In this document: positions 6,670-55,592 of the stretch, piece after piece
Layout of the letters: the number at the start of each line of letters is the position of its first letter
How positions within the stretch are numbered: the stretch's first letter is position 1
Position numbers and translations under genes: made by a program
Assembly: GCA_003151515.1 (NCBI GenBank)
Contig: PLXS01000022.1
Span: 1 to 64,000 of the forward strand
Direction of reading: 5' to 3'
Source of the DNA: Opitutaceae bacterium
Lineage (GTDB): Bacteria; Verrucomicrobiota; Verrucomicrobiia; Opitutales; Opitutaceae
DNA: 64,000 bases
The notes under the pieces: model-generated
Seen by the model: only the letters and a program-made list of their open reading frames with translations
Told to the model about the DNA's origin: nothing
Database searches by the model: none

Positions 6670-6678
6670 AGATTGCGG

Positions 6679-9396: not shown

Positions 9397-9424
9397 GCTA
9401 CGGGCTGCGAAAGTATCCAGTCTC

Positions 9425-10253: not shown

Positions 10254-11096
10254 CTAGCCTCCCGAATCCCCGGCCGCGAGCGCGCCGTGCAACTCAAGGC
10301 TTCCGTCGGCCCGCGCCAGCGCGGCTCCCACCTCCGCATGCTTCGCGCAGAATGCGGCTACCTCCGGGTCCGCCATCACGAAGAACGCCGTGGAAAGGGC
10401 GTCGGCGAGCACCGCGGCCGGTGCGCTCGCCCAGGCCCGCAGCGAGCGCCGCGCCGCCTGCCCCGTCCGGGGATCGACCAGGTGGGATCCCTTGATGGCC
10501 ACGCCCGACCCGCTCAAGGCCCTGCGGCGAAGGCGCAGCTCGCGGCGCCACCCGCCTTCGCCCAATCCGACGGCCCACCCGGCGGAACCGGGCGCGGGCT
10601 CGAGCGCAAGGACCGTGCTGCCGCCGCTGTTGAGGCATGCCGACGCGACGCCCCAGTCCCCGAGAACCTCCCCCATGCGGTCCAGGGCGTAGCCCTTGCC
10701 GATCGCCCCGAGGTCAAGGTGGAGCCTGGCCGCCCGGGACGTGAGCGCGTGCGCCGCGGGATCGAGCGTGAACACGGGCGCGCCCTGCGGATGCCCCGGC
10801 GCGCCCACCGAGCCATAGGCCGGGTCGAAGGTGCGCCCCGTCGCCTCGGCGACCCCCGCGGCCAGCAGCAGGCACTGCAGCGCATCGTCGCCGACCGCGA
10901 TCGAGGCTCCCTCTTCCAGCCGGTTGGCGCGGGCTATGTCGCTCGACTCCACGAAGAGGCTCAGCTCCGCCTCGAGCCGGTCGAGGACTCGGAAGGCCTC
11001 GGCGGCCGCCTGCCTGGCGTAGGATTCGTCGTGGCCGGCGATCACGACCTCGAAGTGGGTCGCCATCGCCTCGTGGCGGAAGCTCGCATGGGTCAT
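10254..11096 (-). CDS. apbE: FAD:protein FMN transferase (ApbE family)
   Basis: The 280-residue protein has no signal peptide. ApbE enzymes attach FMN from FAD to Thr or Ser of partner flavoproteins such as Rnf/Nqr subunits and FMN-binding domains. Family text is visible: LDLGAIGKGYALDRM, LNSGGSTVLAL (the usual GGD aspartate is Ser here) and GSHLVDPRTGQAAR. Its ATG overlaps the stop of the upstream GT2 gene (ATGA), so translation is probably coupled. That glycosyltransferase partnership is unusual for ApbE. No FMN-binding acceptor gene is seen nearby. The lack of an export signal suggests a cytoplasmic target. Confidence 0.88.
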   Translation of the reverse strand: MTHASFRHEAMATHFEVVIAGHDESYARQAAAEAFRVLDRLEAELSLFVESSDIARANRLEEGASIAVGDDALQCLLLAAGVAEATGRTFDPAYGSVGAPGHPQGAPVFTLDPAAHALTSRAARLHLDLGAIGKGYALDRMGEVLGDWGVASACLNSGGSTVLALEPAPGSAGWAVGLGEGGWRRELRLRRRALSGSGVAIKGSHLVDPRTGQAARRSLRAWASAPAAVLADALSTAFFVMADPEVAAFCAKHAEVGAALARADGSLELHGALAAGDSGG

Positions 11097-11794
11097 GGCG
11101 GCGGACGCCTCCGTCCAGCAAGAAGAAGGCGCACCATCGCAGCGGCGGGCCTCCACCACAGCTCGCCAACGCCGTACTTCGAGTGGCCGAGCATCCGGGG
11201 AAGGTCCCGAACGGGGCGCTCGCCCACCCTCAGGCCGGCGGCGGCGGCGAGCGCCGGGACGAAGGCCTGCATGAGGTCCATGGGCCGCAGCGCGCGCACA
11301 ACCTCCCGGCGCATGACGCGGATCTGGCAGCCCGCGTCGTGGACGCCGTCGCGAAGGACCGCGCGCCTGACCAGGTTCGCGACCCGGGAGGCGCCGCGGC
11401 GCCACCACGCGCCCCTGCGCCCGGTGCGCCAGCCGCACGCGAGGTCCAGCCGGCCGTCCTCCACCGGCTCGAGCAGCGCCGGGAAGTCCCCGGGATCGTT
11501 CTGGCCGTCGCCGTCCATCGTCAGGATGAAATCCCCGCGCGCGCAGTAAAGGCCCGCGAGGAGGGCGGAGGCCTGGCCGACCCGCCCCGGCATGCGCAGC
11601 TCGCGGCACTCGGGCCAGCGCGCGACGGCCTCGGCGATCTCCGCCTCGGTCGAGTCCGTGCTGCCGTCGTCGACGAGGATCACCTCATAGGGGCCCCCGA
11701 GCCCCGAGAGGACCGCGATCGCCCGCTCGAGGAGCGGCTTCACGTTGCCCGCCTCGTTGAAGAAGGGCACGACGAGCGAGAAGCGCGGGTTCAT
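11093..11794 (-). CDS. Family 2 glycosyltransferase (dolichol-phosphate-mannose synthase-like)
   Basis: The 233-residue GT-A protein has SLVVPFFNEAGNV, then VILVDDGSTDSTE, then the metal-binding DGDGQNDPGD motif, as in polyprenyl-phosphate sugar transferases. It lacks C-terminal membrane helices. Probable role: loading a sugar onto undecaprenyl phosphate at the cytoplasmic face, for use by the adjacent GT-C-type membrane transferase. It overlaps that gene upstream (4 bases) and apbE downstream (4 bases). Donor sugar unknown. Confidence 0.9.
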   Translation of the reverse strand: MNPRFSLVVPFFNEAGNVKPLLERAIAVLSGLGGPYEVILVDDGSTDSTEAEIAEAVARWPECRELRMPGRVGQASALLAGLYCARGDFILTMDGDGQNDPGDFPALLEPVEDGRLDLACGWRTGRRGAWWRRGASRVANLVRRAVLRDGVHDAGCQIRVMRREVVRALRPMDLMQAFVPALAAAAGLRVGERPVRDLPRMLGHSKYGVGELWWRPAAAMVRLLLAGRRRPPP

Positions 11795-13248
11795 CGGCGC
11801 GGCGTGAAGACGACAAGGACGAAGCCGGGGCGCAGGCCAAGGTACGCCTGGTCATAGGGGCCGTGCAGGCGGGCCCTGACCGCGCCGGCCAGATCGGCCG
11901 AGGCCACGACCATCGCGCCGTCGCACGCCTCGGGCGGGGAGTTCCAGTATCCGACGTTGCCCAGCCCCCGAAGATACCATGGAAGCGGCCAGTACTCCTC
12001 GCTGATCACGCGCACGGGCCCGCCCGGGGTGCGCGCGAGCGCCCATTCGGCCAGGGGCCTAAACTTGAGGACGTCGGGCGCGCTGTGGACGTAGGCGTAG
12101 GGATTGCGCGGGTCGGAGGCGTACACCCGGGCCGCGCGGTCGGCCTGCAACGCGAGCATGGCCACGACCGCAAGCGCCGCCGCGCCGGCAACGGCCGCGC
12201 CGAACCGGTCCCTCGCGAGCGCGGCCAGCGCGCCTGCGGCCAGCAGGGCGAAGCCGGGCACGAGGTTGACGGCCAGCCACGGCGTCTTGTAGGGCGTCGC
12301 CGAAAGGACCAGAAGGACGAGGCCGGAGTATGCGGCCGCCCAGCGAAGGAGACCTGGGCCGCCCGACAGCGCGATGCCGGCCCCGGCAAGGGCCAGGGCG
12401 CCGAACCCGGCCTGCTCGAACGTGAGCCCCCCGCTGCGCTGCCAGGCGAAGAGGCGCAGGTAGTACCACCAGGGCTTCTCGTGGCCGGTGTCGCCCGAGA
12501 GCACCCGGGCCGCCGCCGGCCGCCAGGACCCGAGCGCGTCGCGAAGCCCGGCCGGGTGGCTCCCGAACGAGGAGTAGAAGAGCGCGGCGACCGCAAGGGC
12601 CGCGCCAAGGCAGGCAAGGGCGGCCAGGCCCCCCCGGGCGTGCGCGGGGCGCGCGGGCAGGGGGCCCGCCGCCGCGAGGGCGAGGAGCGCGCACGCTGCG
12701 AACACCGGGGCGCTCTCCTTCGTCGCCAGCATGAGGCCGAGGCACGCCCCGGCGGCCGCGGCCCAGGCCGCGCCGCCGCGCTCCCACCACCGCCTGGCGC
12801 AAAGGAACGCCGCCAGCGTGAACGCGACCAGCAGCGTCTCCTGGATGAAGTACCGGCTGTAGTAGAGCGCCGGGGGCGACGACGCCATGAAGGCTGCGGC
12901 CGCGAGCGATGGCCAGCGGCCCAGGGGCGCGGCCAGGAGCCCGAGCAGGATGACGCAGGCCGCGCCCGCGATCGCGGGCACCAGGCGCACCGTCACCTCG
13001 TCAAGCCCCGCGAGTGTGCGCTCGCCCCTGATCCAGGCCACGGGAAGCACGGCGTAGTAGAGGACGGGGCCGTGATGGTCGCGCGGGTCGTACGCATAGC
13101 GGCCCGACTCGAGCAGCTCGCCGGCCTTTACGGCCTGGTTCGCCTCGTCAGCGTGCATCGGCCGCGCCCCGAGCCCTTCGCCCCTCCAGAGCATGGCCGC
13201 GACGGCGACCAGCGCCAAGGGCAGCCAGTGGGAGGATGTCTGGGGCAT
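11791..13248 (-). CDS. GT-C-type membrane glycosyltransferase, TIGR03663/Agl23-like
   Basis: The 485-residue polytopic protein starts MPQTSSHWLPLALVAVAAML. The first periplasmic loop contains RPMHADEANQAVK and YDPRDHHGPVLYY, text typical of TIGR03663 (flippase activity-associated Agl23-like) and related to family-39 mannosyltransferases, where the acidic pair binds the lipid-linked donor. About ten further hydrophobic segments follow. It probably transfers sugar from a polyprenyl-phosphate carrier to a protein or envelope glycan. The stop overlaps the start of the GT2 gene, so both act in one pathway. Acceptor unknown. Confidence 0.82.
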   Translation of the reverse strand: MPQTSSHWLPLALVAVAAMLWRGEGLGARPMHADEANQAVKAGELLESGRYAYDPRDHHGPVLYYAVLPVAWIRGERTLAGLDEVTVRLVPAIAGAACVILLGLLAAPLGRWPSLAAAAFMASSPPALYYSRYFIQETLLVAFTLAAFLCARRWWERGGAAWAAAAGACLGLMLATKESAPVFAACALLALAAAGPLPARPAHARGGLAALACLGAALAVAALFYSSFGSHPAGLRDALGSWRPAAARVLSGDTGHEKPWWYYLRLFAWQRSGGLTFEQAGFGALALAGAGIALSGGPGLLRWAAAYSGLVLLVLSATPYKTPWLAVNLVPGFALLAAGALAALARDRFGAAVAGAAALAVVAMLALQADRAARVYASDPRNPYAYVHSAPDVLKFRPLAEWALARTPGGPVRVISEEYWPLPWYLRGLGNVGYWNSPPEACDGAMVVASADLAGAVRARLHGPYDQAYLGLRPGFVLVVFTPRR

Positions 13249-13280
13249 TGCGGGCGGGCGGGCGCCACGCGGTGAGGCCT

Positions 13281-13937
13281 TTAGTTCACGGGCCTGCCGT
13301 AAACCTCGACTTCGGTATAGTGGTTGAGCTCGTCGGACGTGTTTCCGTCGCTGTAGAGGCGCACGTAGCGGGCCGTGACGCCCTTCGCGTCGATCACGCG
13401 GCCCCTGTAGGTCTCGACGTACGCGTAGTCCGAGCCCTTGCCGAGCCCGTCCGCGTTCGTGTCGTCGTTGTTGAACACCGTCGTCACGGCCGCCTTGAAG
13501 TCCGGGTCGTTCGACAGCTGCACCACGACGGCGTGGTAGACGCGGGCCTCCGCGTGGAAGTGCCAGACGGCGATCGCCGCGAGCCTCGCCGGGGCCCCCA
13601 GGTCGACCTGCACCCACTGCACTCCGGGCCCGAGCTCCACGTAGGAGCCCTCGATGCCCGACTTGTCCCCGTCCGTCACGCAGGTGAGCTCGCCGATGAC
13701 GGGCGAGGAGTCGCTCGAGGTCGCGGGCTTGTTTAGAGAGAGCAGAACCGTTCCCGCCGGCACCATGAAGGGCGGGGGCGTGCCGACCTGCGCCGGCTCA
13801 AGGTTCGACACCTTGATCGGGCGGGGCGTGCCGACAAAGAGCGGCTTGGGAAGGTCCAGCTTGAGCGGGACCATCTCCTCGGCGCGCACGGCGCAGACCG
13901 AGGCGAGGGCGATGATTGCGGTGAGGAGGCGAAGCAT
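13281..13937 (-). CDS. Secreted discoidin (F5/8 type C)-like protein
   Basis: The 218-residue protein has a signal peptide (MLRLLTAIIALASVCAVRA). The C-terminal part reads as a carbohydrate-binding-like beta-sandwich: CVTDGDKSGIEGSYVELG, WVQVDLGAPARLAAIAVWHF, GVTARYVRLYSDG and NHYTEVEVYG, the standard order of F5/8C strands. Such domains bind glycans outside the cell. It sits 13 bases after a Tat-exported Gfo/Idh gene and 32 bases before the GT-C gene, suggesting a shared role in extracellular carbohydrate handling. Confidence 0.8.
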   Translation of the reverse strand: MLRLLTAIIALASVCAVRAEEMVPLKLDLPKPLFVGTPRPIKVSNLEPAQVGTPPPFMVPAGTVLLSLNKPATSSDSSPVIGELTCVTDGDKSGIEGSYVELGPGVQWVQVDLGAPARLAAIAVWHFHAEARVYHAVVVQLSNDPDFKAAVTTVFNNDDTNADGLGKGSDYAYVETYRGRVIDAKGVTARYVRLYSDGNTSDELNHYTEVEVYGRPVN

Positions 13938-13950
13938 AGGCGTGTCCTTT

Positions 13951-15348
13951 CTAGGCGGTGAAGTCTTCCGGGGCGAACATGAGCATCTTGCGGGCCGCGA
14001 CCGCATCGTTGACCTTGAGCACGGTGACCGCAGTCGCGAACCCGACCTCGCCCGGGCTGTGAAGGGAGCCCTTCCCGCGCATGGCGTCAAAGAAGTTCTC
14101 GAGGTGGGGCTGGTGGATCGCCTTGTCGAGGACAACGGGCATGTCCCACGCGGAGAGCTCGGCCGTCTCGCGCACGTCCACCGTCGAGTCGCTCTTCGAC
14201 ACCATCGAGAGCTTCGGGCGCGGCTTCTCCCAGGGCTTGACCGGCGGCAGGGCGCCCTCGCCCGTGCCCGGGCGGATGATCAGGCCGTCGCTCACCCATT
14301 TGTCCCACTCGGGCGCCCTCGCCTCGCGGTAGAGCCTCGTGTACTTCGGGTTCTCGGATATCTTGAGCGCGCCCTCGTCTCCCATGATGTACTCGTGGTA
14401 GCCGCCCCCGGCGCTCGTCGTGGTCTCCACCTGGTAGACGGCGCGCACGATGCCCGTCTTCGTCGGGAACTCGTATATCGCCGTCACGTTGTCGTACCAC
14501 TCGTGGTTGGTGTAGTAGTCGCGCCCGCCCCCCGCGAGCACCGAGCGCGGGTTTGCTCCAAGCATCCAGTTGAAGATGTCGATCTGGTGCGCGCCCAGGT
14601 CCGAGATGACTCCGCCGGAATACTTCCTGAACCAGCGCCAGTTGCGGAACTCGTGCATGTTGGCGTAGCCGTACTTGTGGAGAATCGCCTCGGGAATCTC
14701 TTGGTGCGCCGGGCAGCCCAGGTCCTCGGTCACCGCCCTGTTCCACTGCGCGTCGGCGGCGGTGATCCGCCCCAGGATGTGCGCCTGCCCGAGCAGGCGG
14801 TCGTGGGCGTAGACGTAGCGGGGATTGCTGCGCCTCTGGTGACCGATCTGCAGGAAACGCCCGGTCGCGCGCGCGGTGGCCACCATCGAGCGCGCGCCCT
14901 CGACCGTGTTCGAAATCAGCTTCTCGCAGTACACGTGCTTGCCCGCACGCAGGGACGCGTTCGTGTGCTCGGCGTGCATGAAGTCCGGCGTGGCGACAAT
15001 TACGGCGTCGATGCCGGGGATATCCGAGAGCATCTCCCGGTAGTCCTCGTACGGCTTGGGGTCGTGCCCGAACTTCTTGAGGAGGCGCTCGCCGTACCCG
15101 CGGTTGTAGGGCCAGATGTCGCAGACCGCGACAAAGCGGATGTTCGGGATCTTGAGCGCGGCGCTCAGCAGCACGCGGCCCTCCTCGCCGCAGCCTATGA
15201 GCCCGACGTTTATCGTGTCGCCCGCCTCCTGCGGGGCGGCGGCCCGCACTATGTAGGGCGCCGCGAGAATCGCGGCGCCCAGCTTTGCGCCCGCTGAAAG
15301 GAAGTCGCGGCGCGTGAGCCCCGGGGGCTGTTGGGGTGATGTCGTCAC
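13951..15348 (-). CDS. Tat-exported Gfo/Idh/MocA oxidoreductase (EKL variant)
   Basis: The 465-residue protein has Tat signal TRRDFLSAG in its first 20 residues, then a Rossmann NAD(P)-binding start INVGLIGCGEEGR and the C-terminal alpha/beta dimer domain. The canonical EKP catalytic motif is EKL (HVYCEKLISN). This family oxidises or epimerises sugars and inositols with tightly bound NAD(P); export with bound cofactor is typical of PVC paralogues. SGGVISDLGAHQIDIFNW is the conserved substrate-site helix. It lies in a tight minus-strand run between DoxX-like and discoidin genes. Substrate unknown. Confidence 0.9.
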   Translation of the reverse strand: MTTSPQQPPGLTRRDFLSAGAKLGAAILAAPYIVRAAAPQEAGDTINVGLIGCGEEGRVLLSAALKIPNIRFVAVCDIWPYNRGYGERLLKKFGHDPKPYEDYREMLSDIPGIDAVIVATPDFMHAEHTNASLRAGKHVYCEKLISNTVEGARSMVATARATGRFLQIGHQRRSNPRYVYAHDRLLGQAHILGRITAADAQWNRAVTEDLGCPAHQEIPEAILHKYGYANMHEFRNWRWFRKYSGGVISDLGAHQIDIFNWMLGANPRSVLAGGGRDYYTNHEWYDNVTAIYEFPTKTGIVRAVYQVETTTSAGGGYHEYIMGDEGALKISENPKYTRLYREARAPEWDKWVSDGLIIRPGTGEGALPPVKPWEKPRPKLSMVSKSDSTVDVRETAELSAWDMPVVLDKAIHQPHLENFFDAMRGKGSLHSPGEVGFATAVTVLKVNDAVAARKMLMFAPEDFTA

Positions 15349-15358
15349 GGCCGGGATC

Positions 15359-15817
15359 CTAGGAACGGCTGCGCCAGGCGCAGAAGCGGTCGTGGCGCAC
15401 GAGGACGAGCGCGCCGGCGATCAGGCCCACGTAGACGGCCAGCCATGCGACGCCCTCGTTCTCCTGGACGGCCATGAGGCCGAAGGCGAGGCTCACGTAG
15501 AGAAGCCCCGTCAGGATGAGAGTCGCCCGGGTCTTGACGCCCAGCAGGAGCGCCGCGCCCAGGACAAGCAGCGCGTAGCCCAGCGCGTGCGCGTAGTTGC
15601 TCGTCGCCCAGAGCGGCAGGAACGAGTTGGCGGTGATGCCCTGCGCCATCTTGCCCATGTTCTGGTAGTAGTTCGCGAAGGAGTAGGTGCCGCCGAGCTC
15701 GAACTTCTCGACGCCCTCGAAGAACGTGCGCAGGCCCAGGAAGAGGCGCAGGATCAGGAATGCCCAGGTGTACTCGCAGGACGACGGCGCCGGGGCGGAC
15801 GGGTTGGGTTCGTTCAT
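15359..15817 (-). CDS. DoxX-like membrane protein
   Basis: The 152-residue protein has four predicted helices. WAFLILRLFLGLRTFFEGVEKF is the usual first DoxX-like helix, and LGYALLVLGAALLLGVKTR is the later one. These small quinone-linked or redox-associated membrane proteins often accompany exported oxidoreductases. Here it lies 10 bases before one Gfo/Idh gene and 19 bases after another, so an electron-sink role for these enzymes is a reasonable guess but untested. Confidence 0.78.
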   Translation of the reverse strand: MNEPNPSAPAPSSCEYTWAFLILRLFLGLRTFFEGVEKFELGGTYSFANYYQNMGKMAQGITANSFLPLWATSNYAHALGYALLVLGAALLLGVKTRATLILTGLLYVSLAFGLMAVQENEGVAWLAVYVGLIAGALVLVRHDRFCAWRSRS

Positions 15818-15836
15818 GGTGATGGGGGCCGTCGGC

Positions 15837-17177
15837 TCAAACGCCGAAGCCGGCCCGGTATTGCTTCGCGACGTATTCGTTCACGGCGGCGACGTTGGTA
15901 ACCTTCATCGCGGCCGAATCCCACTCGATGCGGCGCCTGGCGCGAATGGCGACGTTGCCCAGGACGACCGACTCGGTCAGGCGTGAAGAGTACTCGAAGT
16001 TGGACCCCGCGGCGACGCCCCCCTTGCAGGCCCGCGCCCACTCCAGGAAGTGGCTCATGCCGACGCGTGCAATCGTCTTTGCGGGCAGGCTCGGCGCGAC
16101 CTGCTTCATCCTGGCCTCCGGTATGATCCGGATGCTCCCGTAGTAGGTGTCGCACAGGACTGTCGCCTTGGAGCCGACGAGCAGCGTCCCGTTGTCCTGG
16201 AGCCTGCGGCCCTCCTCGAGCTCCGGCGGGTACGGGGGCGTGAGGCCGCCGTCGTACCAGGTCCAGCGAACGGGCGGCATGGCGCCGCGCGCTGGGAACT
16301 CAAGGCGCACGACCGAGGCGCCCGGCGGGCTGATCTCGGTCTGGATGCCGCCGATCGGATCGACCGACGTCGGCGCGGTCAGGCCCAGGGCCCAGTATGC
16401 GCCGTCCATGATGTGGCAGCCCATGTCGCCCAGGGCGCCGCTTCCGAAGTCCCAGAATCCGCGCCAGGTGAAGGGCAGGTAGGCCGGGTCGTACTCGCGC
16501 GGCTGCGCGACGCCGAGCCAGAGGTCCCAGTCCAGGGTATGGGGGACAACCGGCATCATCTTGCTGTGATCCAGGGGCTTGACGCCCTGCGGCCAGATCG
16601 GCCTGTCGGTCCAGCTGTGCACCTCGCGCACATCGCCCAGGATGCCGGCGTCGACCCACTCCTTGAGAAGCCTCGCGCCCTCGCCGGCGTGGCCCTGGTT
16701 GCCCATCTGGGTCGCCACCTTCGCCTCGCGGGCCGCCTGCGCCAGGCGCCGGGCCTCCGCCACCGTGTGCGTCAGCGGCTTCTCCACGAACACGTGCTTG
16801 CCGTGCGCGATCGCCGCCATGGCGATCGGGAAATGCATGTGGTCGGGCGTCGAGACCGTGACGGCGTCGATGCTGCCCCCCATCTTGTCGAGCATGACCC
16901 GGAAGTCGCGGAAATGCGGGACGGACGGGAATTCCGCGTACGCCTTCGCCGCGCGCTCGTCGTCCACGTCGCAGAAGGCGACCAGGTTCTCGCCCTTGAG
17001 CCCCTGGACCGCGTCGTAGCCGCGGCCCCCAACGCCGCAGCAGGCGACGTTAAGCTTGTTGTTCGGCGACTGCCCGCCGGCGCCCTGCGACCGAAGGATG
17101 TTCGGCAGCGAGGCCGCCGCTGTGGCCAGCGTGGCGGCTTTGATGAAGGTGCGGCGGTTCATGCTCTTGGAGTCCAT
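15837..17177 (-). CDS. Tat-exported Gfo/Idh/MocA oxidoreductase
   Basis: The 446-residue protein starts MDSKSMNRRTFIKAATLA, a Tat signal with the NRRTFIK box. The nucleotide fold reads LNVACCGVGGRG and the catalytic motif HVFVEKPLTHT is canonical. FGSGALGDMGCHIMDGAYWA marks the conserved active-site helix. It is the first gene of the minus-strand run that continues through DoxX-like, Gfo/Idh, discoidin, GT-C, GT2 and apbE genes. A longer N-terminus is open but lies before the Tat motif and is unlikely. Substrate unknown; sugar or sugar-lactone chemistry is the family norm. Confidence 0.91.
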   Translation of the reverse strand: MDSKSMNRRTFIKAATLATAAASLPNILRSQGAGGQSPNNKLNVACCGVGGRGYDAVQGLKGENLVAFCDVDDERAAKAYAEFPSVPHFRDFRVMLDKMGGSIDAVTVSTPDHMHFPIAMAAIAHGKHVFVEKPLTHTVAEARRLAQAAREAKVATQMGNQGHAGEGARLLKEWVDAGILGDVREVHSWTDRPIWPQGVKPLDHSKMMPVVPHTLDWDLWLGVAQPREYDPAYLPFTWRGFWDFGSGALGDMGCHIMDGAYWALGLTAPTSVDPIGGIQTEISPPGASVVRLEFPARGAMPPVRWTWYDGGLTPPYPPELEEGRRLQDNGTLLVGSKATVLCDTYYGSIRIIPEARMKQVAPSLPAKTIARVGMSHFLEWARACKGGVAAGSNFEYSSRLTESVVLGNVAIRARRRIEWDSAAMKVTNVAAVNEYVAKQYRAGFGV

Positions 17178-17476
17178 TTTCTTGCTGGGGTTTGGGATGG
17201 GGCCCGGCATGGGCCGGGCGTTGTTTGGAAGGGGGGTTTCTCGGCGGGCGGGGGCAACGCCGCGCAAGGGTGTCCGGCCCGTCGACCATGCCCAATGTGT
17301 GTGAAGTTCAACCGGACGCCAAGAAAGACCTTGTGATTAATCGAAGAAATTTCCCGGGCCCGGAACCGCGCGCCAGGTGAGACAGCCTCGCAAGCCGCAC
17401 GGCTTGCAAAGGCGCGGATGCTGCCCATACATCCTGCAGACACCTCCCCCCAAGGGCCGGGCGTCCCCTTCCCCCG
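17178..17476. other. Divergent intergenic region between two Gfo/Idh genes
   Basis: This spacer of about 300 bases should carry promoters for both divergent oxidoreductase runs. The part around 17290-17350 is richer in A/T (for example GTGATTAATCGAAGAAATTT) and is the likeliest promoter area. I see no definite operator or RNA. Confidence 0.35.
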
Positions 17477-47927: not shown

Positions 47928-48974
47928 ATGAGCCGACAGACCTACCTCTCCCTGGCCGGCGCAGGCGCGCGCTTGCCCATCGGCACGCACCTGCTGCTTC
48001 ACGCTCACCCGGATCCCGAGGCGATTGTTCTCGATGGCCGGCGCCTTGGCGGGGTCATTGTCGAGGCTGCGGAACGATTCCGAACCAGCCTCGCTGTCCC
48101 GCTAATGGATCTCGCCCTTGAGAAGGAGGCGCTGCTGCTGGCTTGCGGCCTGCCCGCGTCACAGGTCGACGGTCATCATTTTTCCGCCCCTCCCGATATT
48201 CCAGATGAGATCCCCCTCACGCCCCGCATGCGGGCCGCCTGCGGGGCCCTGGCCGAGGTGGCCTGCCGGCCCGGCCTGGTTCCCATCGGCATGGCGATCG
48301 GGCCCTTCTCCCTCATGACGAAGCTCGTCTGCGACCCGATCACGCCGGTGTATGTCGCCGGCACCGGCGTGACCGCCGACGAGGATTGCGAGGTCGCACT
48401 AGTCGAGCAGCTGCTTGCGTCCGGCGAAAGGGCCATCCACCGCTACCTGAAGGCGCAGATCGGGGCAGGTGCCAGGGCCATCATGATCTGCGAGCCAGCC
48501 GCCAACATGGTCTATTTCTCCCCGAAGCAGCTCGCCGTCGACGCCAGGGTCTTCGAGCGGTTCGTCATGGAGCCCATGCGGCGCATCGCGGGGCTGCTGG
48601 CCGAGCACCAGGTCGACCTGATCTTCCACGACTGCGGCGAGCTGACCGATGACATGGTCCGCCGGTTCTCCACCCTGGGCGCCGCCGTGCTGAGCTTCGG
48701 CAGCTCACGCAGGCTCTGGGAGGATGCCCGTCTGGTCCCCAGCGACACGGTACTCTACGGCAACCTGCCCACGAAGCGATTTTACGCCGATCAATTTACC
48801 GTCGCCGAAGTCGAGCGCCTGGCGCGAGAACTCATGGCCAGGATGGGCGCCACCGGACACCCCTTCATTCTCGGCAGCGAATGCGACGTGCTCAGCGTGC
48901 CGGGCAAGGAGCGGGAGATTCTCAGCAAAGTCGACGCGTTCATGAACTGCCCCGGCGCCTCCTGCGCCTGCTGA
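47928..48974 (+). CDS. UroD-family methyltransferase (MtaA/MtbA-like), copy 1
   Basis: The 348-residue TIM-barrel protein contains the zinc motif H-x-C in IFHDCGEL (His234, Cys236) with the distal Cys319 in LGSECDVLS. This H-x-C-x(n)-C set matches cobamide:thiol methyltransferases of the MtaA/MtbA group, where Zn activates the thiol acceptor. MAIGPFSLMTKLVCDP is the usual UroD-like substrate-loop text. It heads a plus-strand run with a second UroD copy, DUF1638, RACo, a corrinoid protein and a third UroD copy. The acceptor could be homocysteine or another thiol; coenzyme M use is not evidenced here. Confidence 0.85.
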   Translation: MSRQTYLSLAGAGARLPIGTHLLLHAHPDPEAIVLDGRRLGGVIVEAAERFRTSLAVPLMDLALEKEALLLACGLPASQVDGHHFSAPPDIPDEIPLTPRMRAACGALAEVACRPGLVPIGMAIGPFSLMTKLVCDPITPVYVAGTGVTADEDCEVALVEQLLASGERAIHRYLKAQIGAGARAIMICEPAANMVYFSPKQLAVDARVFERFVMEPMRRIAGLLAEHQVDLIFHDCGELTDDMVRRFSTLGAAVLSFGSSRRLWEDARLVPSDTVLYGNLPTKRFYADQFTVAEVERLARELMARMGATGHPFILGSECDVLSVPGKEREILSKVDAFMNCPGASCAC

Positions 48975-49164
48975 TGGGCCCATCCCCCCTCTCCCAAGAA
49001 AGGGAAATGCGGTCGTCGCCGTGGCAGTTGACCCTCCCGGAGCCGGACCCGCACGGCCTTGGGCTTGCCGTATGGGCCCGCCGCGACAAGTCTCCCCTAT
49101 TGCTTGGGAGATGTCCTGATCCGGCCGGGTCTTGGCCCCCCGGACGCGCTCGCTGGAAATACAC

Positions 49165-50427
49165 ATGACTGGACGCGATCGACTCGCCGCTTCCCTGGAC
49201 CATCGGTCCACCGACCGGGTCGCCGTCGACTTCGGCGCCTCCTTTGTCACCGGCATGCACGTGTCGGCCGTGACCCGCCTGCGGCGCCACCTGCTTGGAG
49301 ACACGGGCTTCAGGGTAAAGGTCAACGAGCCCTACCAGATGCTCGGCGAAATCGACGACCAACTTCGCGCGGCCCTTCCGATCGACGTCATTGGAATCCC
49401 GGGCCGCAAGTCCATCTTCGGGACCGAGTCCCGCGACTGGAAGCCGTTCACCCTCTTCGACGGGACCGAGTGCCTCGTGCCGGGCCAGTTCAACGTCACG
49501 CGCGCCCCGGACGCCGGCTGGCATATGTACCCTGAGGGCGACACCTCGGTGCGACCGAGCGGGCATATGCCCGCAGGCGGCTATTTCTTCGATTCGATCA
49601 TCCGCCAGCCGCCCATTGACGACGACCGGCTCGACCCCGCGGACAACCTTGAGGAGTTTGCGCCGCTTGACGACGCCGACCTCGAGTTCTATCGCGCCCA
49701 GAGGCGCTGGCTCGACGAGCACGGCGACCTGGGGGCCCTCCTGGTGATCCCGGGCGCCGCCTTCGGCGACATCGCGCTCGTCCCGGCACCCTTCCTCAAG
49801 AACCCAAGGGGCATCCGCGACATCGAGGAGTGGTATGTCTCCACCGTGGCGCGGCAGGACTTTGTGCTGGAGGTATTCGACCGGCAATGCGCCATCGCGG
49901 AGCGCAATCTTCTAACGCTCATCGGCCTCTTCGGCGACTCGGTGCAGGTGGCGCTTCTCACCGGCACGGATTTCGGCACGCAGCGCGGGCCATTCATCTC
50001 GAGGGGGGCCTACCGCACGCTCTACCAGCCCTTCCACCGCCGGCTAAACGACCTGATCCACCGCCACTCGTCCTGGAAGACGTTCATTCACTCCTGCGGC
50101 GACGTCTACCCGCTCCTCCCGGACTTCATAGCCTCGGGCTTTGACATCCTGAACCCCGTGCAGTGCTCGGCCGCGGAGATGGACCCGGCCCGGCTGAAGA
50201 GTGAGTTCGGCCGCGACATAACCTTCTGGGGGGGCGGCGTCGACACGCAGCACACGCTGCCCTTCGGAACGCCCGACGAGATCTACCGGGAGTGCCGGGA
50301 GCGGATCGACATCTTTGCAGCCGGCGGGGGATTCGTCTTCAATGCCATTCACAACGTCCAGGGGCCGACTTCCGTGGAGAAGATGCTCGCCATGTTCCGC
50401 GCCATCCGCGACAGCGCGGGCGGCTAA
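49165..50427 (+). CDS. UroD-family methyltransferase, variant zinc site, copy 2
   Basis: The 420-residue UroD-type protein is longer than copies 1 and 3. FIHSCGDV gives H-x-C (His309, Cys311), but where the third zinc ligand Cys is expected the text is AIHNVQGPT, so His396 may replace it. This subtype is the one that resembles O-demethylase-type substrate methyltransferases, so it is a candidate for the enzyme that takes the methyl group off the donor. The ATG at MTGRDRLAAS is chosen; an ATG 33 bases upstream is open. Donor unknown. Confidence 0.82.
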   Translation: MTGRDRLAASLDHRSTDRVAVDFGASFVTGMHVSAVTRLRRHLLGDTGFRVKVNEPYQMLGEIDDQLRAALPIDVIGIPGRKSIFGTESRDWKPFTLFDGTECLVPGQFNVTRAPDAGWHMYPEGDTSVRPSGHMPAGGYFFDSIIRQPPIDDDRLDPADNLEEFAPLDDADLEFYRAQRRWLDEHGDLGALLVIPGAAFGDIALVPAPFLKNPRGIRDIEEWYVSTVARQDFVLEVFDRQCAIAERNLLTLIGLFGDSVQVALLTGTDFGTQRGPFISRGAYRTLYQPFHRRLNDLIHRHSSWKTFIHSCGDVYPLLPDFIASGFDILNPVQCSAAEMDPARLKSEFGRDITFWGGGVDTQHTLPFGTPDEIYRECRERIDIFAAGGGFVFNAIHNVQGPTSVEKMLAMFRAIRDSAGG

Positions 50428-50437
50428 GGCCGCACCC

Positions 50438-51205
50438 GTGACGCCCCTGCCCACCGCCCCCCTCCAACCGCCCGGGGTCAACACGGCCCTCATCGCCTGC
50501 CGCGTGCTCGAGGCGGAGATAGAGGCGCTCTCCACGGGGGCCGCGCACATCGTGCGCCGGGAGTTCTTCGAGATCGGCCTGCACGACCAGCCTACCAAGC
50601 TGCGCTCGCTGCTCGCGGGCGCCATCGCACGCGCCGAGGATGACCCGGCGGTAGAGCAGGTGGCGCTTGCGTACGGACTCTGCGGCCTCGCGCTCGTGGA
50701 CCTCGCCCCGCGCCGCTGCAGCCTCGTGGTCGCCCGGGCGCACGACTGCATAACCCTGTTTCTTGGCAGCAAGGAGCGCTACGCCGCCATCATGCGCGAG
50801 GAGCCCGGGACCTACTGGTACTCGCCGGGCTGGAACAAGGCCCAGCGTGTGCCGGGCCCGGAGCGGGAGGCGAAGCTGCGGGCCGAGTACACCGCGCGGT
50901 TCGGCGCGGAGGAGGCCGAGGCGCTGATGGAGATGGAACGGTGCGCCTTCGCGCAGCACTCGGTCGCCGGCCACACCGACCTGGCCCTGCCCGGCGATGA
51001 TAAGGACCGGAAGTACTCCGAGCGCTGCGCCCAGTCCCTTGGCTGGCGCTTCAGGCACCATGCGGGAGACGCCACGCTCCTGCGCGACCTGCTGCACGGG
51101 CCGTGGGACAGCGAGCGGTTCCTCGTCGTGCGCCCGGGCGAGCGGATCGCGCACAGTGTTGACGCAGCCATAATCAAGGCCATCCCCGCGGAGCGGAGAG
51201 CCTGA
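50438..51205 (+). CDS. DUF1638 domain protein
   Basis: The 255-residue protein starts at GTG, 10 bases after copy 2. ALIACRVLEAEIEALS, the middle ALAYGLCGLALVDLAPRRCS and HDCITLFLGSKERY mark DUF1638, a family I know mainly from corrinoid methyltransferase neighbourhoods. Its conserved Cys and His residues (CGL, HDC) suggest metal or cofactor contact. It is probably a helper of methyl transfer or cobamide handling. Exact role is not known. Confidence 0.85.
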   Translation: MTPLPTAPLQPPGVNTALIACRVLEAEIEALSTGAAHIVRREFFEIGLHDQPTKLRSLLAGAIARAEDDPAVEQVALAYGLCGLALVDLAPRRCSLVVARAHDCITLFLGSKERYAAIMREEPGTYWYSPGWNKAQRVPGPEREAKLRAEYTARFGAEEAEALMEMERCAFAQHSVAGHTDLALPGDDKDRKYSERCAQSLGWRFRHHAGDATLLRDLLHGPWDSERFLVVRPGERIAHSVDAAIIKAIPAERRA

Positions 51206-51225
51206 CAATCGCCTCACGAGGGACC

Positions 51226-52854
51226 GTGACCGCCGAACACATCGGCCTGCAAACCCCGGACGGGCGCCACGAGCTGGCCGTAGCGGGAGCCGAGGCGTCG
51301 CTGCCCCTCTCCGAGGTGCTCAGGCTCAGGGGCTTCCCGCTGAACACGCGCTGCGGCGGTCGCGGGCTGTGCGGGGGCTGCGAGATCGAGCTTCGCGCCG
51401 GCTCGCTCGGCCGCGCCGCCGACGGGGCCCGCGTCGCCGCCGGCGCCGCCCGCCTCAGGTCATGCCAGATGCGCCTGCGCGGGGAGGATGTCGAGATCGC
51501 GCTGCCGGCGGGCTCGCTGCTGCGCCACGATCCCGCGGTCGTGGCGGAGTTCCGCATCAACATCCCCTGGGCACGCGACCCGCTCGTCCCAGGGGTGCGC
51601 TACGGCGCGGCCGTGGACGTCGGAACGACCACGGTCGCCCTGCTGCTGTGCGACCTCGGGACAGGCGCCGTGGTCGGTGACGCCTCGTCGTTCAACGCCC
51701 AGATCCGCTTCGGTGAGGACGTCATCACGCGCATCCAGCGCTGCAGCGCCGATCCCGAGGCGCTCGGGCAGCTGCAGCGCGCGGTCGCCGCCGAGACCAT
51801 CACACCGCTCCTGAGGGAGGCGTGCGGCCAATGCGGCGTGGCGCCGGGCGATGTCGGCGCGATGGCCGTCGCGGGGAACACCACGATGCTGCACCTGCTG
51901 GCCGGCGTGGACCCGACGCCCATGGGAGTCCACCCGTTCCGGCCCGCGTTTCTCGGGCACCGCACGTATTCGCCGAGGGATGTCGGGCTCGCGTTCGGTG
52001 GGAGCGCCGCCCAGGTGCACCTCCTGCCGGGGCCCGCGGCCTACGTGGGGGCGGACCTTGCCGCCGGCATGGTCGCCACGGGCATGATCTACGACGAGGG
52101 TCCGGCGCTGCTGATCGACGTGGGCACCAACGGCGAGATCATCGCGAAGGTCGGCGACCGGCTGGTCGGATGCGCGACGGCGGCGGGGCCCGCATTCGAG
52201 GGCTCCGGCCTCACGAGCGGCACGCGCGCCGTCCGGGGCGCGATCGAGCGCATACGGCTGCGCACCGGTCCCTTCGCGGCCGAGCTTGGGCTCATCGGCG
52301 CGGCCGACCGGCCGCTGGGCATCTGCGGTTCGGCATACGTGGACTTTCTCTGGGAGGCGCGCCGCCTGGGCATCCTGCAGGCCAATGGCCGGTTTGACGG
52401 CGCGTTTTGCTCTCGCGCCGGCGATGCGATCGAGGCCGGCACCTACGGACGCAGGCTGAGGCTTAATGCAAGCGCCTCCACGGGCGCGATCTGGATCTCC
52501 GAACTGGATATTGCCCGCCTCCTGCAGGCGAAGGCCGCCATCGCGGCCGGCACTTCGACGCTGTTGCATTTGCTCGGAAAGGCACCGGCCGACTTTAGGA
52601 GGATCTATCTCGCCGGCGGCTTCGGTTTTCACCTATCCCTCGAGCACGCCATTGGATGCGGCCTTCTCGCGGGCTTTGGGGCCGGCCAGGTCCAGGTGGT
52701 CGGCAACACGTCGCTCGGCGGCGCCTACCTCGTGCTGAACGACCGCAGCCTGCTCGGGGAGATGGCCGGCGCGTGCCGGGCCATGGAGGCGGTCGAGCTC
52801 AATCTGCAGCCCGGATTTGAGGACGCCTATATCGACAACCTGGTCCTTCCCTGA
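51226..52854 (+). CDS. Corrinoid-protein reactivase (RACo-like, [2Fe-2S] + ASKHA domain)
   Basis: The 542-residue protein starts at GTG. The N-terminal ferredoxin-like part has Cys43, Cys49, Cys52 and Cys80 in a C-x5-C-x2-C-x27-C pattern, binding a [2Fe-2S] cluster. The rest has ASKHA motifs: DVGTTTVALLLCDL, AVAGNTTMLHLLAG, IDVGTNGEI and YLAGGFGFHLSLEHAIGCG. RACo proteins use ATP and an electron from the cluster to restore inactive Co(II) to Co(I) in corrinoid proteins. It sits between DUF1638 and the corrinoid protein, as in acetogen operons. Confidence 0.92.
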   Translation: MTAEHIGLQTPDGRHELAVAGAEASLPLSEVLRLRGFPLNTRCGGRGLCGGCEIELRAGSLGRAADGARVAAGAARLRSCQMRLRGEDVEIALPAGSLLRHDPAVVAEFRINIPWARDPLVPGVRYGAAVDVGTTTVALLLCDLGTGAVVGDASSFNAQIRFGEDVITRIQRCSADPEALGQLQRAVAAETITPLLREACGQCGVAPGDVGAMAVAGNTTMLHLLAGVDPTPMGVHPFRPAFLGHRTYSPRDVGLAFGGSAAQVHLLPGPAAYVGADLAAGMVATGMIYDEGPALLIDVGTNGEIIAKVGDRLVGCATAAGPAFEGSGLTSGTRAVRGAIERIRLRTGPFAAELGLIGAADRPLGICGSAYVDFLWEARRLGILQANGRFDGAFCSRAGDAIEAGTYGRRLRLNASASTGAIWISELDIARLLQAKAAIAAGTSTLLHLLGKAPADFRRIYLAGGFGFHLSLEHAIGCGLLAGFGAGQVQVVGNTSLGGAYLVLNDRSLLGEMAGACRAMEAVELNLQPGFEDAYIDNLVLP

Positions 52855-52951
52855 CATGAACGACACTCGCCCACGCGGCCGATGTTCCGTCGTGCCCCAA
52901 GGCCCCCGTTTCTGCTAGACTTCAGGCGCCCCCGACAACCCCCCAACAACA

Positions 52952-53587
52952 ATGACAACGCTCGAGCAACTGTACCAAGCCGTCATAGACGGGAAGAACA
53001 AGGATGCCAGGGCCCTCGCCCAGCGGGCGCTCGACGAGGGAGCCAATCCCGGCGACATCGTGGACAAGGCGCTGGTTCCCGCGATGGCCGCCGTGGGCGA
53101 GAGATTCAAGAGCAACGAGATCTTCGTGCCCGAGATGCTCGTCGCGGCCCGGGCGATGAAGGAGGCGATGGGCGTGCTGGAGCCGCGGCTTGTCGCCGCG
53201 GGCATCACGCCCAAGTACACGGCCCTGATCGGCACCGTGCAGGGCGACCTGCACGACATCGGCAAGAACCTGGTCGCGGTCATGTGGAGGGGGTCCAACT
53301 TCCGCGTCATAGACCTGGGCAGCAACGTGCCCGCCACCAAGTTCGTGAGCGCGATAAACGAGCACCGCCCACACCTGGTCGGCCTGTCCGCGCTGCTCAC
53401 CACGACAATGCCGGCCATGGTGGAAACCGTGCGGGCCATCCGCTCCGCCGGATGCCCGCCCGTCAAGATCATGGTGGGCGGAGCGCCGATCAGCCAGCAG
53501 TTTGCCGATGAGGTCGGCGCCGACGGCTTTGCCCCCGACGCGGCCTCGGCGGCCGAGAAGGCCCGCGCGCTCGTCGAGTCCGCGTGA
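52952..53587 (+). CDS. Corrinoid (cobalamin-binding) methyl carrier protein
   Basis: The 211-residue protein has the four-helix B12-binding cap domain (first 85 residues) followed by the cobalamin Rossmann domain. The lower-ligand motif is D99-x-H101-x-x-G104 in QGDLHDIGKNLV, and the later SALLTT and GGAP motifs also match. Like MtaC/MttC/CFeSP-type carriers, it shuttles the methyl group as methylcobamide between a donor methyltransferase and an acceptor methyltransferase. It is 97 bases after the reactivase and 43 before the third UroD copy, so all are one unit. Cytoplasmic. Confidence 0.94.
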   Translation: MTTLEQLYQAVIDGKNKDARALAQRALDEGANPGDIVDKALVPAMAAVGERFKSNEIFVPEMLVAARAMKEAMGVLEPRLVAAGITPKYTALIGTVQGDLHDIGKNLVAVMWRGSNFRVIDLGSNVPATKFVSAINEHRPHLVGLSALLTTTMPAMVETVRAIRSAGCPPVKIMVGGAPISQQFADEVGADGFAPDAASAAEKARALVESA

Positions 53588-53630
53588 GACCGCCAGACCT
53601 TCCCCCCAGCGCAGCGCACGCCTAAATCCC

Positions 53631-54632
53631 ATGGAGCCCCGTGAACGCTACATGGCGGTGCTGGAGGGGGGCCGCCCCGACATGCTGCCGCGCATGCCCA
53701 TCCTGATGCAGTTCGCCGCCGAGCACATCGGCTCCTATTACGGCGCCTTCGCGTCGGACCATCGCGTGCTGGTCGAGGCCAACCTGCGCTGCGCCGAGGA
53801 GTTCGGCATCGACCAGCTCAGCGCGATATCCGACCCCTACCGGGAGACGGCGGGGTTCGGCGCGCCGATCGAGTTCCCGCGAAACGGCGTGCCCATTTGC
53901 CTGAAGCCGCCGCTGGAGGAGGATCCGGATCTCGCCAGGCTTTCGCGGCCCGATCCCCTCAAGGCGCCGCGCATGCGCGACCGCGTCGACGCCGTGTCCG
54001 CCTACAAGGCGCGGGCCGGCGGCCGCTATTCCATCATGGGATGGGTGGAGGGACCCGCGGCCGAGGCGGCCGACCTGCGCGGGGTTTCCAATTTCTTCGT
54101 CGATTTGCTCGACGACCCGGCCTATGCGAGCGCGCTGATGGCCCGTTGCGTCGACACGGCAATTGACTTTGCCAGGGCGCAGGTGGCCGCCGGCGCCGAC
54201 ACGGTCGGCATCGGCGATGCCGTCGCCAGCCAGGTGTCGGCGAAGCTTTACGAATCCCTCATCCTTCCGCACGAGAGGCGGCTCGTGGCGGCGGTGCATG
54301 AGATGCGCGCGCGCGTCCGGCTCCACATTTGCGGAAACATCAGGCACCTGCTGTCCGGCATCGCGAGCCTCGGCCTCGATATCGTCGACATCGACCACAT
54401 GGTAAGCCTCGCCGAGGCACGGCGGGTGCTGGGCCCGAACATCGTGCTGGCAGGAAACGTCGACCCGGTCGCGTGCGTGATGCGCGGATCGCCGGAGGCC
54501 ATCGCCTCCGCCGTGCGCCAATGCTACGCCGAGGCCGGCGAGCCATTCATGGTGGCCGCCGGCTGCGAGATTCCCGCATCGACACCGCCCGCGAATCTGG
54601 CCGCGCTCTGCCGGCCCATCGTTCCGCGATGA
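53631..54632 (+). CDS. UroD-family methyltransferase (MtaA/MtbA-like), copy 3
   Basis: The 333-residue TIM-barrel protein has complete zinc motif H-x-C (His232, Cys234, in LHICGNIRHL) and Cys312 (AAGCEIPASTP). The start MEPRERYMAVLEGGRPDMLP fits the family. It lies directly after the corrinoid protein and is a candidate acceptor-side methyltransferase. It converges on the homocysteine methyltransferase gene. Copy 1 has the same ligand set but a different sequence. Confidence 0.88.
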   Translation: MEPRERYMAVLEGGRPDMLPRMPILMQFAAEHIGSYYGAFASDHRVLVEANLRCAEEFGIDQLSAISDPYRETAGFGAPIEFPRNGVPICLKPPLEEDPDLARLSRPDPLKAPRMRDRVDAVSAYKARAGGRYSIMGWVEGPAAEAADLRGVSNFFVDLLDDPAYASALMARCVDTAIDFARAQVAAGADTVGIGDAVASQVSAKLYESLILPHERRLVAAVHEMRARVRLHICGNIRHLLSGIASLGLDIVDIDHMVSLAEARRVLGPNIVLAGNVDPVACVMRGSPEAIASAVRQCYAEAGEPFMVAAGCEIPASTPPANLAALCRPIVPR

Positions 54633-54677
54633 GGGAGGCCGGCGGGCGACGGGAATCCCCGGGGGCTCCGGGCGCCA

Positions 54678-55592
54678 TCACCCCGCGCCCGGGCGGAACT
54701 GGTCGACCATCCGCCGGATCTGCCTGGTGTGCTCTGGCGTGCTCCCGCAGCAGGAGCCGACGATCCTGACGCCAGCCTCCAGGACCTCGGGAACCTCACG
54801 GGCCATGTCGCAGGGACCCTGCCTGTAGACGGCCTTGTGGTTCTCGATGATGGGCCGGCCCGCATTCGGCTGCACCATCATGGGAAGCCTGGAGTTCTGC
54901 CGGTAGAGGCGCGCAACCCTCGCTGCCCCCGCCATGTCCATTCCCGTGCCGCAGTTGAGCGCCACGAAGTGCGCGCCCCTTTCCTCGACAAACCGCGCCG
55001 CCTGCTCGGGCGAGACGCCCATCATCGTCCGGTAGGAGGCCCCGTCCTGCAACAGGTCGTAGGCCAGCGACGCGATGACGCACGGCGCGCCCGCCCTCCT
55101 GGCCGCGTCGATTGCGATGCCTAGCTCATCGAGCGCAGTCTGAGTTTCGATGATGATCGCATCGACGCCGGCTCCCACGAGCGCGCCGGCTTGCTCCTCA
55201 AGCGCCACCTTCGCCTCCGCCAAGGGGAAATCGCCGGTGGGCTCCAGGATCGCGCCGAGCGGCCCAATGTCGCCCAGCACAAAACCGGGCCGGCCTTCAA
55301 ATGCCTCGCGCGCGATCCGAGCTCCGGCCCTGTTGATCTCCTCCAGCTGCGCCCCGTGGCCATGCGGCGCGAGCCTGATGCGGTTCGCGCCGAACGTGTT
55401 CGTAATCAGGCAGTCCGCGCCCGCCTCGACATACCGCCTCTGGATCAAGAGCACCCGCTCGGGATGACTCAGGTTCCAGGCCTCGCCGCACCCACCCTGC
55501 TCGAGGCCGGCGAGCACAAGCTCGGTGCCCATTGCCCCGTCGCAGACAAGGCGGCGCTCGCGAACGGCTTCATGAAGGAGGATTCCAGGCAT
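54678..55592 (-). CDS. Homocysteine S-methyltransferase
   Basis: The 304-residue protein has the start LVCDGAMGTELVLAG, and zinc ligands Cys213 (ALNCGTG), Cys281 and Cys282 (GSCCGSTPEH), all as in MetH N-terminal domains, BHMT and MmuM. It methylates homocysteine to methionine; the methyl donor in this subfamily varies. Convergent with the corrinoid run (45-base spacer), it may be the acceptor branch of that system, but it is on the other strand, so shared regulation is not proven. A longer open frame upstream has no family text. Confidence 0.9.
   Translation of the reverse strand: MPGILLHEAVRERRLVCDGAMGTELVLAGLEQGGCGEAWNLSHPERVLLIQRRYVEAGADCLITNTFGANRIRLAPHGHGAQLEEINRAGARIAREAFEGRPGFVLGDIGPLGAILEPTGDFPLAEAKVALEEQAGALVGAGVDAIIIETQTALDELGIAIDAARRAGAPCVIASLAYDLLQDGASYRTMMGVSPEQAARFVEERGAHFVALNCGTGMDMAGAARVARLYRQNSRLPMMVQPNAGRPIIENHKAVYRQGPCDMAREVPEVLEAGVRIVGSCCGSTPEHTRQIRRMVDQFRPGAG

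Follow-up and report, generated by a model that had tools for sequence, protein, structure and literature searches.

A corrinoid methyl-transfer cluster of an Opitutaceae bacterium as a candidate folate-independent demethylase/methionine synthase

Positions 47928 to 55592 of contig PLXS01000022.1 from an Opitutaceae bacterium (assembly GCA_003151515.1) hold a cluster of corrinoid methyl-transfer genes which, on balance, probably functions as a folate-independent demethylase/methionine synthase, the methyl group ending on homocysteine. The window, i.e., the whole stretch of DNA that was analysed, comprises the first 64,000 nucleotides of this contig. Corrinoid methyl transfer involves a donor enzyme, a carrier and an acceptor enzyme, plus an ATP-driven activase, and textbook bacterial corrinoid demethylation ends on tetrahydrofolate. 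In the route proposed for the window, one or more of three methyltransferases of the UroD family (U1, U2 and U3), acting on the donor side, would move a methyl group from a substrate onto the corrinoid carrier P0005. The RACo-type activase P0004, helped by a DUF1638 protein, would re-reduce the carrier once it has slipped to Co(II), and the stand-alone homocysteine methyltransferase P0007 (HcyMT) would take the methyl group from the carrier onto homocysteine to give methionine. Such a route would correspond to the split synthase that produces methionine in Phaeobacter and Ruegeria, with its folate-binding part swapped for UroD-type demethylases, and would operate as a folate-independent methyl salvage alongside an apparently complete MetH. 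Gene neighbourhood and co-occurrence point to homocysteine as the acceptor, and the knowledge available on the protein families suggests the corrinoid chemistry and its reactivation, in which DUF1638 is a probable helper. If true, the degradation of methylated compounds, with methanol among them in some relatives, would be tied directly to methionine and S-adenosylmethionine by a compact folate-independent route, DUF1638 would gain a clear working context, and the occurrence of genomes with donor enzymes and carriers yet no recognisable folate acceptor would be explained.

An earlier reading made from the letters of the DNA (the sequence-only reading), whose interpretation is partly supported as a whole, had described six plus-strand genes and a convergent homocysteine methyltransferase. 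All seven open reading frames are confirmed, with their coordinates and Pfam identities (Table 1). The six plus-strand genes (47928-54632) are separated by gaps of 190, 10, 20, 97 and 43 bp, and the HcyMT gene converges on them across a gap of 45 bp. The most likely starts of U2 and DUF1638 were corrected to an ATG at 49165 and a GTG at 50438, respectively. The locus is not a product of chance, since subsets of its genes recur in other phyla.

Homocysteine methyltransferase and its gene partners

Gene runs that associate a HcyMT with corrinoid genes recur in other genomes. Loci anchored on HcyMT, 20 in number, were taken from 19 genomes bearing a U1 relative, to the exclusion of the HcyMTs already seen around U1; other genes of the system lie nearby in 11 of them, and none of the 20 matched the profiles built here for PF00809-type (pterin-binding) proteins. 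In the acidobacterial locus L337, the genes for U2, carrier, HcyMT, DUF1638, U3 and RACo follow each other on one strand and, at three of their junctions, overlap by four to eight bases (the starts being chosen by a script); this Pfam-verified run represents the set of the window minus U1. Shorter runs consist of carrier-HcyMT-DUF1638-U3-RACo (L345), carrier-HcyMT-DUF1638-RACo (L339) and carrier-HcyMT-U3 (L331). The true relatives of the window U3, with 40-47% identity, are those of L331, L337 and L345 together with one gene of L341. Other matches of the U3 profile, in L199, L200, L327, L328, L332 and one more gene of L341, share 22-26% identity and were set aside as another UroD type.

Two other runs contain MtaB, the enzyme of the methanol system. 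The genes carrier-RACo-MtaB-HcyMT-DUF1638 form a single run in L207 (positions 1772-7223, genome G115; found via DUF1638), where HcyMT is the only recognised candidate to unload the carrier, as far as the run itself is concerned, the rest of that genome being unsearched for pterin proteins. In L341 (genome G418), MtaB, the carrier, several UroD genes and HcyMT are united in one run, while RACo and DUF1638 are encoded on the opposite strand. Both L207 and L341 look like systems for methanol:homocysteine methyl transfer.

Co-occurrence was measured with a stand-alone HcyMT defined by a rule of our own (E<=1e-40, open frame of 250-580 amino acids, aa). Across 194 genomes of the phylum, HcyMT and DUF1638 are found together in 33, HcyMT only in nine, DUF1638 only in 18 and neither in 134, a distribution with a Fisher probability of 2e-16, which ignores shared ancestry. 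These genomes are taken as a subset of the 387 searched for DUF1638, their handles falling within that set and the nine matchless ones being unnamed; G168 is counted as DUF1638-positive on a marginal match, and p becomes 2e-15 without it. Within the family of the window, both genes occur in seven genomes, a single one in none and neither in 12 (Fisher 2e-5, with the same disregard of ancestry). A stand-alone HcyMT is present in 37 of 50 U1-bearing genomes, picked from several phyla without a fixed rule, and in partial form in one further genome, versus 42 of the 194 across the phylum. Genomes that combine MtaB and U1 possess it in nine of the 11 searched, with one further partial gene. Homocysteine, put forward by the sequence-only reading as a candidate acceptor, is thereby supported by both the gene runs and the co-occurrence.

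The protein P0007 itself resembles the homocysteine half of MetH. Its closest sequence in the PDB is 1q7m, the N-terminal half of a MetH (E 6e-45) which we take to originate from Thermotoga, and three cysteines, Cys214, Cys281 and Cys282, presumably the zinc cysteines of the MetH homocysteine half, are invariant in 12 of 12 aligned sequences, one of which is the corresponding domain of this genome's own MetH. A direct betaine- or dimethylsulfoniopropionate-homocysteine methyltransferase, whose position would merely reflect a shared methyl metabolism, is a very improbable identity for P0007. Bmt of Phaeobacter, which belongs to the same family, uses both compounds directly in vitro (PMC12366255), but the match of P0007 to MetH is far better than those to BHMT (E 1e-11) and to enzymes of the MmuM type (3e-12), and HcyMT overlaps by four bases with the carrier gene in L345 and with DUF1638 in L337 and L207.

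The cluster and its host genome

Table 1. Position, strand and database matches of the seven genes of the cluster
Gene product	Position	Strand	Matches
U1: UroD-family methyltransferase, 348 aa	47928..48974	+	Pfam URO-D E 5e-17
U2: UroD-family methyltransferase, 420 aa	49165..50427	+	Pfam URO-D (C-terminal part) E 2e-9
DUF1638 protein	50438..51205	+	PF07796 E 1e-31
RACo-type corrinoid reductive activase (P0004)	51226..52854	+	PF17651 (middle) E 1e-46, PF14574 (C-terminal) E 8e-62; PDB 3zyy E 3e-80
MtgC-like corrinoid carrier (P0005), 211 aa	52952..53587	+	PF02607 cap E 2e-24 + PF02310 E 6e-25; PDB 1y80 E 1e-54
U3: MtaA/CmuA-like UroD methyltransferase	53631..54632	+	Pfam URO-D E 1e-61
HcyMT (P0007): stand-alone homocysteine S-methyltransferase, 304 aa	54678..55592	-	PF02574 (S-methyl_trans) E 4e-58

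The motifs announced for these proteins are present, with a reservation for the activase. Cysteines 43, 49, 52 and 80 of its ferredoxin part were located by direct computation, but the corresponding Pfam domain scores 20.0 bits, slightly under the cut-off of 21. The D-x-H-x-x-G motif of the carrier reads DLHDIG, at residue 99, and the H-x-C...C sites of U1 and U3 are described below. The carrier matches the NCBIfam MtgC model with an E value of 1.5e-54, below the cut-off of the model.

The host is represented by a draft genome of 3.6 Mb in 42 contigs, 92.4% complete. A single PF00809 match occurs in this draft and corresponds to MetH, located on a different contig from the cluster. Because the sole PF00809 domain belongs to MetH, no branch of the MtgA/MtvA type was found by this search of a 92%-complete draft, which supports the view of the sequence-only reading that this corrinoid system lacks a pterin methyltransferase of its own. 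That reading had named the presence of such a gene in another part of the genome as an observation that would refute the proposal; it was searched for and not found in the draft. The B12-binding (PF02310) proteins of the draft are also restricted to two, MetH and the carrier of the cluster. MetH consists of two adjacent genes, one for the homocysteine domain and the next for the pterin, B12 and activation domains. These two genes lie in different frames on contig C34 (L039, positions 4262-8118), owing either to a natural split or to a frameshift of the draft.

With respect to donor enzymes, neither MtaB (PF12176) nor a methyltransferase of the MttB type or of PF06253 (MtgB) was found in the draft genome. 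Five UroD-family matches are present, namely U1, U2 and U3, a U2-like paralogue on another contig, and a strong match elsewhere which is taken to be HemE. A separate dihydropteroate synthase was not found in the draft either, its only PF00809 match being MetH; judged by scores, this enzyme seems to be encoded by no fewer than 22 of 32 genomes compared. The failure to find it may reflect either a gap of the draft or a folate dependence, and the latter, if true, would make a folate-independent route to methionine useful.

Neighbourhoods of U1 relatives and the folate branch

Relatives of U1 were collected in 85 loci, consisting of 80 from named genomes (the best 80 of 96 confirmed), four of the same family or the same order, and the window. 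They are labelled Verrucomicrobia/Opitutaceae/Akkermansiaceae, Planctomycetota, Lentisphaerae, Armatimonadetes, Acidobacteria, Spirochaetes and others. The neighbourhood counts, for these and the other anchored loci, were made at E<=1e-8 with profiles constructed for this analysis, some of them derived from no more than three sequences or even a single one, and with a Pfam check on examples. The carrier is matched in 47 loci, U2 in 26, RACo and DUF1638 in 25 each, MtaB in 12, HcyMT in 12 including the window, U3 in nine, and an MtgA-like PF00809 protein and MTHFR in four each. A tblastn pass gave 29 loci for U2 and seven for U3, and left the counts of carrier, RACo, DUF1638 and HcyMT unchanged. 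The identities of MtaB, PF00809 and MTHFR were checked by Pfam on example loci, L082 and L207 in the case of MtaB.

Besides the window, 11 of the 84 remaining loci contain a HcyMT against 0.73 expected, assuming two HcyMT-like genes per 3.6 Mb. The gene follows U1 immediately, on the same strand, in seven of the 85 (L061, L062, L067, L071, L081, L093 and L126); the carrier of L093 occurs on the other strand, about 3 kb further. HcyMT is located beside the carrier in L121, and L088 repeats the layout of the window, its HcyMT being convergent.

MtaB is located at most 2.3 kb from U1 or from the carrier in L059, L070, L072, L073, L075, L077, L082, L091, L108, L129, L131 and L136. A clear MtgA-like PF00809 protein was found in none of the 12 genomes combining MtaB and U1, one of which (G400) has an unclear match. 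MtaB and HcyMT each accompany U1, in 12 of 85 loci, but never in one and the same U1 locus, so that U1 may act on either side; the idea that U1 is necessarily an acceptor enzyme was rejected.

An ordinary demethylation into tetrahydrofolate, with an acceptor either missing from the draft or consisting of the pterin half of MetH, and with HcyMT uninvolved, is quite unlikely in the window. It would agree with the four U1 loci that contain a PF00809-type protein, accompanied by MTHFR in three, with the same kind of protein near a HcyMT orthologue in G099, and with a draft that is 92% complete and also devoid of a detected separate dihydropteroate synthase. It accords poorly with the 12 MtaB-U1 genomes, where no PF00809 match clearly goes beyond dihydropteroate synthase and MetH (G400 remaining unclear), and with the recurrence of HcyMT gene runs that contain no PF00809-type gene.

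Several observations weigh against homocysteine as the outlet of the cluster, in addition to the shared ancestry ignored by the Fisher values and to the incompleteness of the draft. The HcyMT gene of the window is convergent, on the opposite strand, and therefore shares no common transcript with the six plus-strand genes. Not one of the 85 U1 loci unites MtaB and HcyMT, and in nine of the 20 HcyMT-anchored loci no further gene of the system was seen. None of the four orthologues nearest to P0007 in the phylum scan (62-70%) is beside a U1 cluster: the distance to a PF00809-type gene and MTHFR is about 1.5 kb for that of G099 and about 10 kb for that of G091, and those of G010 and G143 adjoin a different UroD and a RACo. 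The genome G158 carries the cluster without a stand-alone HcyMT. Among 12 U1 genomes devoid of HcyMT, four (G409, G410, G427 and G436) possess an MtgA-like protein, and in the other eight neither protein was recognised. Moreover, the absence of a neighbouring pterin gene proves little, because the pterin piece of Phaeobacter is unlinked.

Loci anchored on DUF1638 also count among these points. From 111 matches in the phylum, 110 loci were retained, the marginal match of G168 being excluded. A stand-alone HcyMT occurs in only two of them, the window and L207 (a third match, L045, is MetH), and the MtgA-like profile matches four; MtaB matches five. The neighbourhood search for DUF1638, RACo and carrier that the sequence-only reading had suggested, run here across the phylum, finds the three together in 26 of the 110 loci, a 27th case being MetH, but DUF1638 is the sole member of the sought families in 62 (e.g., L213, L226, L248 and L274), partly on short contigs. 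In the four of these lone loci that were inspected, the long frames around DUF1638 were judged by eye to be unlike corrinoid genes. Nearness in DUF1638-anchored loci was discarded as evidence because of these 62 loci.

The lack of a recognisable pterin branch noted by the sequence-only reading holds for the draft. In some relatives, these genes are linked to a PF00809 protein, mostly together with MTHFR, so that a part of the group does possess a pterin branch. MtgA-like proteins were told from dihydropteroate synthases by score and span, and additional PF00809 matches of unassigned class occur in G387, G388, G400, G414, G417, G420, G425, G426, G432 and G435. A pterin-linked version, in which a second carrier is accompanied by UroD, MTHFR and an MtgA-like protein, is found in two genomes of the same family, in L198 (positions 9111-17467, G099) and L201 (G091). 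Homocysteine looks like a common but non-universal outlet, and folate may serve some relatives.

A wider reading, held tentatively, is that the cluster of the window is one member of a system widespread in Verrucomicrobiota, Acidobacteria, Armatimonadota and Planctomycetota. Interchangeable donors, either UroD types or MtaB for methanol, would charge a free carrier, and a dedicated PF02574 protein would unload it onto homocysteine. As part of this same tentative reading, members resembling L207 would be methanol:homocysteine methyltransferases.

UroD proteins, related systems and other neighbours of U1

The three UroD proteins of the cluster differ in their putative metal ligands. The zinc-type site of U1 comprises H234 and C236 (H-x-C) followed by C319, and that of U3 comprises H232 and C234 followed by C312; the His-Cys-Cys ligands of U1 are conserved without exception in the 60 homologues aligned. 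In U2, H309-S-C311 is present but the later Cys ligand is absent, and an invariant His (H396) replaces the second Cys in the U2 family (alignment of 15 sequences). U1 and U3 carry the zinc ligands of thiol enzymes and U2 does not; each UroD may serve either side, U2 being a candidate demethylase of the donor side. The zinc-ligand rule of PMC10418091 would class U1 and U3 as thiol enzymes and U2 as an O-methyl enzyme. The ligand class was rejected as a proof of substrate and kept as a guide.

At the sequence level, U3 matches the MtaA/CmuA subfamily model with an E value of 3.6e-45, below the cut-off, and shares 26.9% identity with Methanosarcina mazei MtaA across 268 residues. The structure prediction that had been recommended for the UroD copies was performed for U1 and U2. 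Both the AlphaFold model of U1 (pLDDT 95.6) and the model of U2 (pLDDT 85.8) have MtaA as top PDB match (4ay8 and 4ay7, respectively), only slightly ahead of uroporphyrinogen decarboxylase, and their structural alignment to M. mazei MtaA yields 15-17% identity for U1 and 14% for U2. Because uroporphyrinogen decarboxylases obtain nearly the same scores as MtaA, the Foldseek ranks of U1 and U2 were discarded as evidence. The 50 PDB matches listed for each model include no donor enzyme of the MtvB/OdmB/MtoB type, no reference sequence of this type having been compared.

Among the described systems, the cluster of the window works most like a split methionine synthase with a non-folate methyl donor. 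Mutant fitness data show that Phaeobacter divides methionine synthesis between a homocysteine subunit that stands apart, a carrier (MtbC) and a pterin protein, and that it also requires DUF1638 and a protein resembling RamA (PMC5764234). The association of carrier, HcyMT, RamA-like protein and DUF1638 is known from Phaeobacter and Ruegeria as a split methionine synthase, and the same articles provide precedent for carriers shared by several methyltransferases (PMC5764234, PMC12478193). Like the systems of Phaeobacter inhibens and Ruegeria pomeroyi, the window possesses a separate PF02574 subunit, an MtgC-like carrier, a RamA/RACo-like activase and DUF1638. It differs from them by three UroD proteins, a two-gene MetH in the genome, and no separate PF00809 subunit detected in the 92%-complete draft.

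The mlp clusters (Kountz and Balskus 2023 preprint, PMC10418091) constitute the other close parallel. They are pterin-free associations of UroD, corrinoid protein and activase for which roles in methyl-selenium metabolism or methionine salvage have been proposed, and they are distributed for 73% in Firmicutes, among anaerobes only. Like the Type 1 mlp clusters, the window groups the genes of several UroD proteins with those of a corrinoid protein and an activase into a single run. Measured against their definition, carrier and activase lie in the same direction within 2 kb (on one strand, with a gap of 97 bp), and no tetrahydrofolate methylase occurs within 20 kb, the sole PF00809 protein being on another contig. 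The definition also asks for at least two MtaA-like proteins with more than 25% identity to a soluble coenzyme M methyltransferase, and U3 alone reaches this value with the one reference compared, M. mazei MtaA. Unlike the mlp clusters, the window contains DUF1638 and HcyMT, and the relatives of its cluster belong largely to Verrucomicrobiota, Planctomycetota, Armatimonadota and Acidobacteria. The cluster is filed in neither kind, because it falls short of each on one defining feature, the pterin subunit for the split synthase and the two MtaA-like proteins for the mlp clusters.

A methyl-sulfur or methyl-selenium salvage of the mlp kind is an unlikely function of the window, in which U1 and U3 would swap methyl groups between thiols via the carrier. 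For example, a methylthio compound would be demethylated and sulfide or another thiol methylated, HcyMT being one outlet or a mere neighbour. The assignment of His-Cys-Cys ligands to S/Se-methyltransferases (PMC10418091), their invariance in U1, the identity of U3 to MtaA, and the failure to find a folate methylase in the draft all fit this salvage, but U1 and U2 resemble MtaA in their fold, with an identity of 14-17%, leaving U3 as the single MtaA-like protein against the one reference, and the relatives pair U1 with MtaB, an O-methyl donor enzyme, in 12 of 85 loci.

Other systems offer more partial resemblances. The logic of a donor methyltransferase, a corrinoid carrier and an activase is shared with MtaABC, MtvABC, MtgBCA (glycine betaine) and CdmBCA (chloromethane), and close relatives of the cluster carry MtaB, as does the methanol system MtaABC. 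Unlike these four systems, no MtaB, MttB-type protein or PF00809 acceptor other than MetH was found in the genome of the window; the PF00809 acceptor MtvA of the three-component O-demethylases was likewise not found in the draft. The MesA-MesD proteins are folate-independent methionine synthases related to MetE, among which MesA-C probably use methyl groups of corrinoid proteins (PMC7857596). The route proposed here would also yield methionine without methylfolate, but the homocysteine enzyme of the window locus belongs to PF02574, a difference that concerns the locus, the rest of the genome being unsearched for MetE-type cores. The description of the pathway as little known is to be qualified: pterin-free mlp clusters (PMC10418091) and the split synthase (PMC5764234, PMC12478193) have been described, and it is the combination of parts that is new, no such combination having been found in a search of the open-access literature, to which this statement is limited.

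Other genes recur in the vicinity of U1. A family of proteins of about 370 aa occurs in L042 (positions 10447-11553), L077, L079, L080, L081 and L097; the one member scanned has no Pfam match, and the family is perhaps a distant relative of UroD. A gene for a DUF6580 membrane protein, which could be a transporter, lies just upstream of the carrier in L061, L062, L065, L067, L069, L129 and L136, and downstream in L059 and L073; the assignment was checked by Pfam in L069 only, and the scores are weak in L059, L073, L129 and L136. Regulators of the AraC type with a PocR sensory domain, which may sense the methylated substrate, are encoded near the cluster in L046 (positions 10463-11575), L073 (8073-9272) and, weakly, L047 (10340-11821). 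A profile of this type, built from one sequence, matches 18 of the 85 U1 loci, some of which may contain an AraC protein without PocR.

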